From positions 62,001 to 126,000 of the forward strand of contig NZ_CP043329.1 of NCBI RefSeq assembly GCF_008195825.1: a stretch of DNA of 64,000 nucleotides, given 5' to 3'. Positions 22,663 to 27,537 of the stretch are shown here, piece by piece. Under the pieces are notes generated by a model. It had not been told where the DNA came from, did no database searches, and saw nothing but the letters and a program-made list of their open reading frames with translations. How positions within the stretch are numbered: position 1 is the first letter of the stretch; every line of letters starts with the position of its first letter. Source of the stretch: Pedobacter aquae (GTDB taxonomy: Bacteria > Bacteroidota > Bacteroidia > Sphingobacteriales > Sphingobacteriaceae). The translations under genes were made by a program, and so were the position numbers.

Positions 22663-22692
22663 TTGCATAAGAAAAATAAGTGTGTACATTTG
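22663..22692 (+). promoter_or_regulatory. promoter of the attenuated aromatic amino acid operon
   Basis: TTG at 22663-22665, exactly 19 bases, then TACATTTG at 22685-22692: a full match to the Bacteroidetes consensus. Transcription would start near 22698, about 12 bases before the leader peptide ATG. Confidence 0.8.
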
Positions 22693-22709
22693 CATCCAAC
22701 AAACAAAAA

Positions 22710-22772
22710 ATGAAATTCAACGCTACATATTACTTCGGTTACTTTTATTATTCAAATAAGAGCCGGGCATAG
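22710..22772 (+). CDS. Tyr/Phe-rich leader peptide of an attenuator
   Basis: A 20-residue ORF starting MKFNATYY. Residues 7-14 read YYFGYFYY, so 7 of 8 consecutive codons are Tyr or Phe. Such codon runs are the hallmark of ribosome-mediated attenuation: the ribosome stalls there when Tyr-tRNA or Phe-tRNA is scarce. The anti-terminator half GCCGGG (22762-22767) lies in its last codons, just before the TAG, and a terminator follows at 22801. The downstream genes make Phe precursors, which fits. The peptide itself probably has no other function. Confidence 0.88.
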   Translation: MKFNATYYFGYFYYSNKSRA

Positions 22773-22833
22773 TATGTTGTAATAGACTATAAAAATACAA
22801 AGACCCGGCCTAAGCAGACCGGGTCTTTTTTTT
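22762..22833 (+). promoter_or_regulatory. transcription attenuator: alternative anti-terminator and terminator stems
   Basis: Terminator: AGACCCGG (22801-22808) pairs perfectly with CCGGGTCT (22819-22826), followed by eight Ts at 22826-22833. Anti-terminator: GCCGGG (22762-22767) can pair with CCCGGC (22804-22809), which uses the terminator's left arm, so the two are exclusive. A ribosome stalled on the Tyr/Phe codons (up to 22751) leaves GCCGGG free and favours read-through. A ribosome at the leader stop (22772) covers it, and the terminator forms. Confidence 0.88.
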
Positions 22834-22840
22834 AATCAGC

Positions 22841-23671
22841 ATGAGCGCAAAAAAGAGAGTTGCAATACAGGGAATTAAAGCTTCTTTTCACGAAGAAGCC
22901 GCTTTTAAGTTTTTTGGAGAGGATATAGACACCATCGAGTGTAACTCTTTTAAAGAAACTTTTCAGAAGCTTAAAGCAGGTGAGGCCGACTATGTGGTGA
23001 TGGCTATAGAGAATAGCATTGCCGGAAGTTTATTGCCTAATTATACTTTATTAAGAGAGTATAATTTCCCAGTCATAGGCGAAGTCTACCTGCATATTCA
23101 ATTGCATTTAATGGCGCTTCCAGGGGTTAAGTTTGAGGATATTAAAACCGTAACTTCGCATCCCATTGCTATTCGCCAGTGTAATGATTTTCTGGATGAT
23201 TTCCCTCATCTAAAAGTGGTAGAAAGTAGCGATACTGCTGCCTGTGCTAAGAAAATCAAAGAAGAGCAATTAACAGATACGGTTGCTATTGCCAATAATT
23301 TAGCAGCAAAGCTTTATGGCTTAGAAATTTTAGAACGTAGGATAGAATCTAACAAGAAAAACTACACCCGTTTTTTAATTCTTACAGATAAACAGGTAGA
23401 TATTAAAGATAGTAACAAAGCTTCTTTGTGCTTTCAGGTAAATAATAATGTAGGTTCTTTAGCTGCGGTATTAAACATCTTTGCCGAGAATAAGATTAAT
23501 ATGAGTAAAATCCAATCTATGCCGGTACTGGGTAAAAGAAATGAATATAATTTTTATGTAGATGTAGAGTGGAAAGATACGAAGCAGTACGATAGAGCCA
23601 TCCGCGATTCATTAAAACATACCAGCAACTTTAGCATTTTGGGCGAGTATAAAAAGAACGATAAGGTTTAA
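22841..23671 (+). CDS. pheA: prephenate dehydratase
   Basis: It converts prephenate to phenylpyruvate, the committed step to phenylalanine. It has 276 residues. The catalytic domain (about 1-180) starts VAIQGIKASFHEEAA and contains MAIENSIAGS and the TRF motif in NYTRFLIL. A C-terminal ACT domain (about 190-270, SLCFQVNNNVGSLAAVLNIF) normally binds phenylalanine for feedback inhibition. It is the first structural gene behind the attenuator, 7 bases after its T run. No chorismate mutase domain is fused here; it is on the next gene. Confidence 0.96.
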   Translation: MSAKKRVAIQGIKASFHEEAAFKFFGEDIDTIECNSFKETFQKLKAGEADYVVMAIENSIAGSLLPNYTLLREYNFPVIGEVYLHIQLHLMALPGVKFEDIKTVTSHPIAIRQCNDFLDDFPHLKVVESSDTAACAKKIKEEQLTDTVAIANNLAAKLYGLEILERRIESNKKNYTRFLILTDKQVDIKDSNKASLCFQVNNNVGSLAAVLNIFAENKINMSKIQSMPVLGKRNEYNFYVDVEWKDTKQYDRAIRDSLKHTSNFSILGEYKKNDKV

Positions 23672-23730: not shown

Positions 23731-24834
23731 ATGAAACTTAACTTAAACATACAACCACTAAGCAGCTGGATGAAGGTATCTAGCGAGCCATTAATCATCT
23801 CTGGACCATGTAGTGCAGAAACAGAAGAGCAATTATTAGCAACTGCTCATTTAGTAAAAAACACAGGTAAAGTAAGTGTTTTAAGAGCAGGTATCTGGAA
23901 GCCAAGAACTCGTCCAGGAGAATTTGAAGGTATCGGAAGCATCGGTTTACAATGGTTAAAAAGAGCTAAAGAAGAAACAGGTTTACCTACAGCAGTAGAG
24001 GTAGCAACAGCAAAACACGTTGAAGAAGCTTTAGCAGCAGGTGTTGATATCCTTTGGATTGGTGCTCGTTCTACCGTAAACCCTTTTACAGTACAAGAAA
24101 TTGCTGATGCTTTACAAGGAGCAGATGTTCCAGTAATGGTTAAAAATCCTATCAACCCAGATTTAGCTTTATGGATTGGTGCTTTAGAGCGTATCAATAG
24201 AGCTGGAATCACCAAATTGGCAGCTATCCACCGTGGATTCTCTTCTTTTGAGAAATCAGCTTACAGAAACGAGCCTATGTGGGATTTAGCTATCCACCTT
24301 AAAACATTAGCACCAGAATTACCTATCTTGAACGACCCAAGTCATATTTGCGGTACAAGAGACTTAATTCCTTACATCTCTCAACAAGCATTAGACTTAG
24401 ATATGCAAGGTTTAATGATCGAGTCGCATATAGACCCTTCTGTTGCATGGACAGATGCTAAGCAACAAGTTACGCCAGCTGCCTTAACAGAAATCGTTAA
24501 TAACTTAACCATCAGAAAAGCAGATTCTTCAAATCCAGAGTTTACCGATAAATTACAAGGTTTAAGAGATTCAATTGATAGAATTGATGATCAAATCTTA
24601 CAAAAACTAGGCGAGCGTATGGCTTTGGTAGAGAAAATTGGTGAGTACAAAAGAGATAACGATGTAACCATCTTACAGGTTAACCGTTGGGAAGAAATTT
24701 TAGAGAAAAGAACTGCTTTAGCAAGTGCTTTAAAATTAGAAAAAGATTTCACAGAGAAGGTTTTAGAATTGATACACGGCGAGTCTATTCGTAAACAAAC
24801 CGAAATCATGAACGCTAAAACAGAACTAAACTAA
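23731..24834 (+). CDS. bifunctional DAHP synthase / chorismate mutase
   Basis: It catalyses the first shikimate-pathway step (PEP plus erythrose 4-phosphate to DAHP) and, through its C-terminus, chorismate to prephenate. It has 367 residues. The N-terminal type I-beta DAHP synthase (about 1-260) has ISGPCSAETEEQL, LRAGIWKPRTRPGEFEG and NDPSHICGTRD. The C-terminal AroQ chorismate mutase (about 275-360) has LRDSIDRIDDQILQKLGERM. The 59-base gap after pheA contains a short run of 7-base repeats (TGACCAT, TAACCAT). The stop overlaps the aroA ATG by one base. Confidence 0.95.
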   Translation: MKLNLNIQPLSSWMKVSSEPLIISGPCSAETEEQLLATAHLVKNTGKVSVLRAGIWKPRTRPGEFEGIGSIGLQWLKRAKEETGLPTAVEVATAKHVEEALAAGVDILWIGARSTVNPFTVQEIADALQGADVPVMVKNPINPDLALWIGALERINRAGITKLAAIHRGFSSFEKSAYRNEPMWDLAIHLKTLAPELPILNDPSHICGTRDLIPYISQQALDLDMQGLMIESHIDPSVAWTDAKQQVTPAALTEIVNNLTIRKADSSNPEFTDKLQGLRDSIDRIDDQILQKLGERMALVEKIGEYKRDNDVTILQVNRWEEILEKRTALASALKLEKDFTEKVLELIHGESIRKQTEIMNAKTELN

Positions 24835-26078
24835 TGAGCGGAAATATCCTCATCAGTAATGCTCCAAAACAAATACAGGAGACGATTAGGTTAACAGGCT
24901 CTAAAAGCGAAAGTAACAGAGCGCTTATCATACAGGCATTAAGTGGCGGAAAGGTTAAAGTAGAAAACCTTTCGGCTGCTGCCGATACCGTAACGCTAAA
25001 CCATATTTTAAATAGTTTAGCCCAAGAACCAGCAGAAGTAAATGTTGGTCCGGCTGGTACGGCTATGCGTTTCTTGGCTTCTTACCTCACGGTTAAAGGT
25101 GTTCAGACCGTATTAACCGGTACAGAGCGGATGAAACAACGTCCTATTGGTATCTTGGTTGATGCGCTTAATAAAATTGGTGGGCAAATTACTTATGTAG
25201 AAAAGGAAGGTTTTCCACCTTTACAGATAGCGCCTGCTTTTAAACAAACGCAAAATAAGGTCAGTATCAAGGGAGATATCAGCTCGCAATATATTACTTC
25301 TTTACTATTGGTTGCAGCCGCTTTAGAAGAAGGTTTGACATTAGACATTGAAGGCGAGTTAACCTCCAAACCTTATGTAGAGATGACATTAGGTTTCTTA
25401 GTTCAGTGTGGCATTCAGCATACTTGGGAAGATAACCAAATTACAATAGCACATCAGGAGTTTGAAAGCAGCACCCTTGTGGTAGAGCCAGATTGGAGCG
25501 CAGCATCTTATTGGTATGCTTTTGCTGCTTTGGCAGATGAGGCCACCATTACTTTACCTTATTTAAGACAAAACAGCTTACAAGGTGATAGCGTTATTGC
25601 AGCTATCATGGCGCATTTTGGTATTGCTACGGCTTACAGTGAAGAAGGTATCATCATCAAAAAAGTTCCTCATCAGCTTAGCGAAAAATTCTTTGATTTA
25701 AAAGACTGTCCGGATTTAGCCCAAACTGTTATTGTTTGTAGTGCTGCATTAGGGCATGAGGCTACTTTTACAGGCTTGGAAACTTTAAAAATTAAAGAAA
25801 CAGACCGCGTTGCCGCTTTACAAAACGAATTGGCTAAGATTGGAGTTAAACTTATTGAGGAAAACCTAAATTATACTTTAGATTGTAGCGGATTACATTT
25901 TCCAGATAAAATCAGTATTGCTACCTACGAAGATCACCGTATGGCGATGGCCTTTGCACCTTTAGCAAGCTTTGTTAAAGAGGTTGAAGTAGAAGAAGCA
26001 AACGTGGTAGAGAAATCATATCCAAGCTATTGGGAAGATGTAAAGAAAATTGGATTCAGACTGGATGATTTAAAGTAG
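24834..26078 (+). CDS. aroA: 3-phosphoshikimate 1-carboxyvinyltransferase (EPSP synthase)
   Basis: It joins PEP to shikimate 3-phosphate, step 6 of the shikimate pathway. It has 414 residues. Visible motifs are LTGSKSESNRALI, VGPAGTAMRFLASYL (the Gly-rich PEP-binding loop), KGDISSQYITSLL, LKIKETDRVAALQNELAKIG and YEDHRMAMAFAPLA. It starts within the stop of the DAHP synthase gene. Its own TAG stop lies inside a short 7-base repeat run (GTAGAAA, GTAAAAA) that leads into the palindromic array. Confidence 0.96.
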   Translation: MSGNILISNAPKQIQETIRLTGSKSESNRALIIQALSGGKVKVENLSAAADTVTLNHILNSLAQEPAEVNVGPAGTAMRFLASYLTVKGVQTVLTGTERMKQRPIGILVDALNKIGGQITYVEKEGFPPLQIAPAFKQTQNKVSIKGDISSQYITSLLLVAAALEEGLTLDIEGELTSKPYVEMTLGFLVQCGIQHTWEDNQITIAHQEFESSTLVVEPDWSAASYWYAFAALADEATITLPYLRQNSLQGDSVIAAIMAHFGIATAYSEEGIIIKKVPHQLSEKFFDLKDCPDLAQTVIVCSAALGHEATFTGLETLKIKETDRVAALQNELAKIGVKLIEENLNYTLDCSGLHFPDKISIATYEDHRMAMAFAPLASFVKEVEVEEANVVEKSYPSYWEDVKKIGFRLDDLK

Positions 26079-26112: not shown

Positions 26113-26134
26113 GTCTTTTGCGTTCGTTTTAATC

Positions 26135-27480
26135 ATAGCCCAAGGTTTAAACCTTGGGCTAAAAGATAAATCTTGCGCTCGTTTTAATCATAGCCCAAGG
26201 TTTAAACCTTGGGCTATAAGATAAATCTTGCGCTCGTTTGTAACGAGTGTTTAACATGGTCTAGCGATTCAATCGCTTTAAAGATATATGCACATCATAG
26301 CCCAAGGTTTAAACCTCGGGCTATAAGATAAATCTTGCGCTCGTTTGTAACGAGTGCTTAACATGGTTTAGCGATTCAATCGCGTTAAAGATATATGCAC
26401 ATCATAGCCCTAGGTTTAAACCTAGGGCTATAAGATAGAAAAGCTTTTGCGCTCGTTTGTAACGAGTGCTTAACATGGTTTAGCGATTCAATCGCGTTAA
26501 AGATATATGCACATCATAGCCCAAGGTTTAAACCTTGGGCTATAAGATAAATCTTGCGCTCGTTTGTAACGAGTGCTTAACATGGTTTAGCGATTCAATC
26601 GCGTTAAAGATATATGCACATCATAGCCCAAGGTTTAAACCTTGGGCTATAAGATAGAAAAGCTTTTGCGCTCGTTTGTAACGAGTGCTTAACATGGTTT
26701 AGCGATTCAATCGCGTTAAAGATATATGCACATCATAGCCCAAGGTTTAACCTTGGGCTATAAGATAAATCTTGCGCTCGTTTGTAACGAGTGCTTAACA
26801 TGGTTTAGCGATTCAATCGCGTTAAAGATATATGCACATCATAGCCCTAGGTTTAAACCTAGGGCTATAAGATAGAAAAGCTTTTGCGCTCGTTTGTAAC
26901 GAGTGCTTAACATGGTTTAGCGATTCAATCGCTTTAAAGATATGCACATCATAGCCCAAGGTTTAAACCTTGGGCTATAAGATAGAAAAGCTTTTGCGCT
27001 CGTTTGTAACGAGTGCTTAACATGGTTTAGCGATTCAATCGCGTTAAAGATATATGCACATCATAGCCCTAGGTTTAAACCTAGGGCTATAAGATAGAAA
27101 AGCTTTTGCGCTCGTTTGTAACGAGTGCTTAACATGGTTTAGCGATTCAATCGCGTTAAAGATATATGCACATCATAGCCCAAGGTTTAAACCTTGGGCT
27201 ATAAGATAAATCTTGCGCTCGTTTGTAACGAGTGCTTAACATGGTTTAGCGATTCAATCGCGTTAAAGATATATGCACATCATAGCCCTAGGTTTAAACC
27301 TAGGGCTATAAGATAGAAAAGCTTTTGCGCTCGTTTGTAACGAGTGCTTAACATGGTTTAGCGATTCAATCGCGTTAAAGATATATGCACATCATAGCCC
27401 TAGGTTTAACCTTGGGCTATAAGATAAATCTTGCGCTCGTTTGTAACGAGTGCTTAACATGGTCTAGCGATTCAATCGCT
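26135..27480. repeat. tandem array of 13 palindrome-bearing repeat units between aroA and aroC
   Basis: Each unit carries a 28-bp perfect palindrome whose left arm is ATAGCCCAAGGTTT or ATAGCCCTAGGTTT. Then come a short inverted repeat (AAGATAAATCTT or AAAAGCTTTT), the hairpin CTCGTTTGTAACGAG and the hairpin GCGATTCAATCGC, and a linker ending GATATATGCACATC. Palindromes begin at 26135, 26190, 26297, 26404, 26516, 26623, 26735, 26841, 26951, 27063, 27175, 27282 and 27394. After the first, which is 55 bases from its neighbour, the spacing is 106-112 bases, mostly 107 or 112. Copies 7 and 13 are one base shorter. Alternative arms change on both sides together, so base pairing is kept. It contains no gene. 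Confidence 0.93.
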
Positions 27481-27492
27481 TTAATTATATAA

Positions 27493-27537
27493 GAACCAGC
27501 AACCGGCAACCAAAAACTGGCAACCGGCAACTGAAAA
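27493..27537. repeat. 7-base periodic repeat upstream of aroC
   Basis: AACCAGC, AACCGGC, AACCAAA, AACTGGC, AACCGGC, AACTGAA follow each other at exact 7-base intervals. The reverse complement (GCCGGTT/GCCAGTT) is the same heptamer type as at 32395-32430 and 33200-33245. It ends 20 bases before the aroC ATG. Confidence 0.65.

Follow-up and report, generated by a model that had tools for sequence, protein, structure and literature searches.

The operon that opens with pheA in Pedobacter aquae raises the question of how entry of RNA polymerase into it is controlled, and to which amino acids that control answers. Within the window, the whole stretch of 64,000 nucleotides of contig NZ_CP043329.1 that was analysed, the forward strand carries pheA, encoding prephenate dehydratase (22841-23671), a gene for a DAHP synthase-chorismate mutase (23731-24834), and aroA, encoding 3-phosphoshikimate 1-carboxyvinyltransferase (24834-26078). 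These are the genes that an earlier note, made from the sequence alone, had named, and nearly every related locus with sufficient flank has them in this order. Judged from sequence and its comparison across relatives, which establish an ORF, its codon run and three stems that exclude one another, together with the conservation and spacing of these parts, the element upstream of pheA is very probably a classical ribosome-mediated transcription attenuator.

A promoter of the Bacteroidota type lies at 22663-22692 on the forward strand. Its -7 box, TACATTTG (22685-22692), fits the consensus TAnnTTTG of the phylum (PMC9723704), with a TTG at 22663-22665 placed upstream across a 19-nt spacer, and transcription would be expected to start near 22698. 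The promoter announced by the earlier note is therefore present, but it is not of the E. coli sigma-70 kind, for which a consensus scan returned zero sites. In 121 of 177 loci an exact TAnnTTTG occurs in the 70 nt that precede the leader ATG, most commonly at a distance of 20-26 nt. Downstream of the box, a leader ORF of 20 codons, MKFNATYYFGYFYYSNKSRA, runs from ATG to TAG on the forward strand (22710-22772; stop codon 22770-22772), and its codons 7-14 (22728-22751) read YYFGYFYY, a control run of five Tyr and two Phe codons found just as had been described. With at least 7 aromatic residues in 8, the pheA leader stands alone among the 1030 short ATG ORFs counted over the two strands of the window, and when the 320 nt upstream were shuffled 5000 times, no ORF with 7 aromatics in 8 arose. 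The leader is, in short, an ORF rich in codons for the amino acids of its own operon, as expected of an attenuator of this class.

Three stems compete within the RNA. The antiterminator half GCCGGG (region 2, 22762-22767) sits at the end of the leader, in its last three codons (18-20, AGC CGG GCA), and pairs with CCCGGC (region 3, 22804-22809), as the earlier note had proposed and as folding and pair counts confirm. Region 3 is common to the antiterminator and to an intrinsic terminator (3:4) located between the leader ORF and the first gene (22799-22833), with a predicted stem at 22799-22828 and a T8 tract at 22826-22833; the claim of a strong terminator sharing its left arm with the antiterminator stands, with the stem beginning 2 nt earlier than the 22801 first given. 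The folding energy of 22772-22833 is -20.6 kcal/mol (z -4.7; no shuffle equals it), and 7 nt separate the end of the terminator from the pheA start codon. Folding of the full leader returned the terminator together with a second hairpin, also seen in alignment counts, in which region 1 (22725-22738), lying in the stretch of control codons, pairs with 22763-22777 and masks GCCGGG. When 22696-22815 was folded, with the right arm of the terminator not yet made, the antiterminator was obtained. Since this third stem exists, the element holds the full set of 1:2 protector, 2:3 antiterminator and 3:4 terminator of the E. coli trp leader; the protector, missed earlier, completes a trp-type design. 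The ribosome-stalling geometry previously likened to E. coli pheA and trp is supported. The antiterminator uses the left arm of the terminator and, in the model described below, is hidden once a ribosome has reached the stop codon of the leader, and the protector, with moderate support, would favour termination when translation is lacking.

The effect of ribosome position was modelled by folding the RNA with region 3 just emerged and the ribosome masked at each codon in turn. In the window, the modelled probability of the antiterminator was 0.99-1.00 with the A site anywhere in codons 7-14 and fell to zero at the stop codon, with switch-off within two codons past the last Tyr, a distance that follows from the assumed footprint. 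In the same model, a ribosome at the stop codon blocked the antiterminator in 158 of 158 family loci. With the leading edge set at A+10 or A+12, every aromatic codon permitted the antiterminator in 154 of these loci; at A+14 this held for 118. Measured from its first base, the last aromatic codon precedes the antiterminator by 10-14 nt in 147 of the 158. The equilibrium fold of the full-length RNA favours the terminator for every ribosome position and does not reproduce antitermination, which must therefore be kinetic, occurring during transcription; the co-transcriptional view does reproduce it.

The mechanism proposed would link leader translation and ribosome stalling to termination, and so to a Tyr and Phe response, in the following way. 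Transcription would begin just past the TACATTTG box, and the 20-codon leader would be translated at once. When charged tRNA-Tyr or tRNA-Phe is scarce, the ribosome would stall with its A site in codons 7-14, covering region 1 (22725-22738) and leaving GCCGGG free to pair with the emerging CCCGGC; the terminator would come too late to form, and RNA polymerase would enter pheA, the DAHP synthase-chorismate mutase gene and aroA. When Tyr and Phe are both plentiful, the ribosome would reach the stop codon at 22770 and cover GCCGGG, and the terminator would act before pheA. If the leader were left untranslated, region 1 may pair with region 2, and the terminator would form too.

Relatives of pheA came from 80 named contigs, supplemented by searches through 121 genomes of the family and 149 of the class. 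In Sphingobacteriaceae, counting distinct upstream regions of pheA genes at least 60% identical and taking at least 6 aromatic residues in 9 as a leader, an aromatic leader precedes pheA in 164 of 164 regions when GTG and TTG starts are included; conservation of the codon run, which the earlier note had singled out for checking, is thus complete in that count. Two loci (L139 and L165) had been taken for cases without a leader and were rejected as such, their leaders beginning with TTG and GTG, starts that an ATG-only scan had overlooked. Among named relatives, Pedobacter puniceum is the closest, with pheA identity of 100%, followed by P. glucosidilyticus at 97%. One genome of the same genus lies outside the 164 (G118, locus L214); its dehydratase is divergent (45%) and is not preceded by a comparable leader with terminator. 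Among 142 distinct leader ORFs the residues in the run comprise 576 Y, 482 F, 111 G and 55 W, and little else. The aromatic share is 40.5% in frame, against 8.5% and 11.6% in the two alternative frames, most of which are interrupted by stops. By this comparison the leader reading frame is constrained, the aromatic codons being conserved as codons, in frame.

The composition of the run bears directly on the alternative that deserves most attention, namely that the attenuator is real yet answers in practice to either Tyr or Phe alone, with no role for the remaining codons, much as the E. coli leader responds only to Phe. Tyr outnumbers Phe 5 to 2 in the run, and in the folding model a stall at any single codon would suffice. 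However, Tyr and Phe codons are both present in all 142 distinct family leaders and in 19 of 19 leaders from outside Sphingobacteriaceae, although they are one base apart and freely exchanged between species; a single-amino-acid response is therefore unlikely, though it retains some weight, and the suggestion of the earlier note that the operon may sense both amino acids gains support. A Trp codon is additionally found in 54 of the 142 family leaders; its presence on the pheA tree shows 18 changes, of which 10 or more fall on well-supported branches, and Trp codons enter the pheA leader in other genera.

Two variations in layout were observed among the relatives. In seven loci of a Pedobacter group (L017, L022, L026, L043, L052, L061 and L074) an extra stretch places the terminator about 90 nt before the pheA start, against the usual 15-20 nt or so. 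Shorter leaders of 16-17 codons (L089, L095, L099, L146, L164 and others) end immediately upstream of the antiterminator half rather than within it; by the model, this half would still be covered when a ribosome sits on such a stop.

Pairing statistics were taken from an alignment of 62 leaders, with shuffled (500) and slid controls. The terminator has 95.2% of cells paired and two-sided changes in 9 of 11 pairs (0 of 500 shuffles match), the antiterminator 85.0% and 6 of 10 pairs (10 of 500 shuffles), and the protector 79.5% with 36 two-sided cells (0 of 500 shuffles); pairing drops sharply for all three when the partners are slid by 1-3 columns. The terminator covaries strongly and the antiterminator and protector moderately, the statistics of the latter two being modest on some measures, the protector not outstanding on every one, and the columns of both being constrained also by coding and by one another. 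The clearest compensatory case is that of L170 and L173, with the antiterminator pair GCCAGGAC/GTCCTGGC, in which GCCGGG becomes GCCAGG and the terminator arm CCCGGC becomes CCTGGC, with the right arm in step, while KSQD replaces KSRD in the leader. Further variants of the pair are GAGCGGGA/TCCCGCTC in L216 and L217 and GGCAGGA/TCCTGCC in L132, and the covariation between 22762-22767 and 22804-22809 on which the earlier reading depended is accordingly present. Contiguous antiterminator pairs number only 6 bp in the window versus 9-10 in most relatives, which, like the equilibrium preference for the terminator, counts against the attenuator reading. The Gly codon kept in most runs may be explained by its GG pairing with region 2. 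A cross-locus pairing control was dropped as uninformative because the arms are conserved, and the alignment pair counts were used in its place.

These changes also speak to the possibility of an ordinary intrinsic terminator of an upstream transcript, the ORF and its pairing being a coincidence or the ORF encoding a short functional peptide. Similar GC-rich terminator stems are indeed common in the genome, but this element lies between its own promoter box and pheA, 7 nt from the start codon, and every relative keeps the leader, its run and the spacing. In L170 and L173 the peptide tail shifts along with the RNA pairing, so the conserved tail is best read as an RNA constraint, and such an explanation is very improbable. 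Attenuation dependent on a protein or ligand (TRAP-like, T-box or riboswitch), in which the ORF would play no part, would share the competing terminator and antiterminator stems that are common to those systems too, but it is hardly credible here, as no T-box or riboswitch family reaches the Rfam threshold, the stems overlap the control codons themselves, and it is as in-frame codons that the aromatic positions are conserved.

For the ribosome-mediated attenuator, the gene content of the genome offers a rationale for pooled sensing. Two PF00793 proteins are encoded, one of them KDO8P synthase, and the genome yielded no DAHP synthase of class II; the operon therefore holds the only DAHP synthase detected, and it would be sensible for the switch to sense more than Phe. 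The tyrA gene is divergent and unlinked to pheA, lying about 34 kb upstream; it encodes the sole prephenate dehydrogenase found (L218:1321-2634, C1 about 50.3-51.6 kb), whose best match is of the PRK08655 type, far below the cut-off. A missing tyrA had been suspected from a weak PF02153 match and from the lack of PF20463 and PF00351 matches in the genome; this was rejected, the weak match being the divergent dehydrogenase itself. A covariance-model search of the same genome gave pheA alone as a strong match (107 bits). Most of the weaker matches inspected resemble ordinary terminators, and one (L227, C1:3113994-3114133, 32.7 bits), outside the window, is a second attenuator, with a WWW leader, MKMKTNTLKWWWYSHM, and a terminator just before trpE. 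The His-codon pattern, which could miss a his leader, gave none, its only match being antisense to another gene.

The E. coli pheA leader, pheL, combines a leader peptide, an antiterminator and a terminator before the prephenate dehydratase gene and senses Phe only, whereas the window leader carries Tyr plus Phe codons. The E. coli trp leader has the exclusive 1:2, 2:3 and 3:4 pairings in common with the window leader, yet it has Trp codons and precedes trp genes, in contrast to the Tyr/Phe codons and pheA found here. In the E. coli ilvGMEDA and thrABC leaders one codon run pools several amino acids of a shared pathway, branched-chain or Thr/Ile, whereas the window leader would pool aromatic ones. 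A 2004 survey by Vitreschak and colleagues reportedly names attenuators in Bacteroidetes too. An Rfam scan of the leader gave no family at threshold, with RF01859 (Phe_leader) at 20 bits against 55 and RF00513 (Trp_leader) at 15.6 bits against 41.

Strong transcriptome clues for leader-peptide attenuation before amino-acid operons were described in Flavobacterium psychrophilum, where pheA is preceded by a structured element conserved in Flavobacteriaceae and without Rfam hits (PMC9723704). By this description it resembles the present element in phylum, gene and lack of an Rfam hit; the main text of that paper gives no codon run, stems or specificity for it, and two Flavobacteriaceae-like loci (L296 and L297) have an aminotransferase next to pheA, not the DAHP synthase of the window. 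The literature search on Bacteroidetes attenuation found only this work and a passing remark in PMC7366714. Leader-peptide attenuation in Bacteroidota and a structured pheA element have thus already been reported, and the mechanism itself is textbook; what is notable in the Sphingobacteriaceae version is the pooled aromatic specificity, for two and often three amino acids, that its codons predict.

The leader covariance model picks up pheA leaders in other Bacteroidota families, and some before hisG-like genes. An aromatic leader was found in 36 of 47 distinct pheA upstream regions from the wider searches, a sample partly chosen by the model. On this comparative footing, trp-type attenuation appears as the conserved means by which Sphingobacteriaceae as a whole, and probably much of Bacteroidota, control aromatic synthesis. 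Opinion is evenly balanced on the broader proposal that such an aromatic attenuator spans the phylum, a single run pooling Tyr, Phe and often Trp over the sole DAHP synthase, and that, given the repeated gain and loss of the Trp codon, specificity is adjusted one codon at a time while the switch itself stays constant. If so, a single RNA switch would set the flux into the whole aromatic pathway. Aromatic attenuators of Bacteroidota escape Rfam, where no model reports them, and the natural series of Tyr/Phe/Trp runs on a near-constant switch is a ready test set for relating the position and identity of control codons to the response.

Beyond the operon, the gap between aroA and aroC (26116-27512) contains a repeat array with a start-to-start spacing of 107-112 nt, in which some pairs of repeats are 100% identical over 300 nt, whereas in close relatives the same gap measures only about 160-330 nt.
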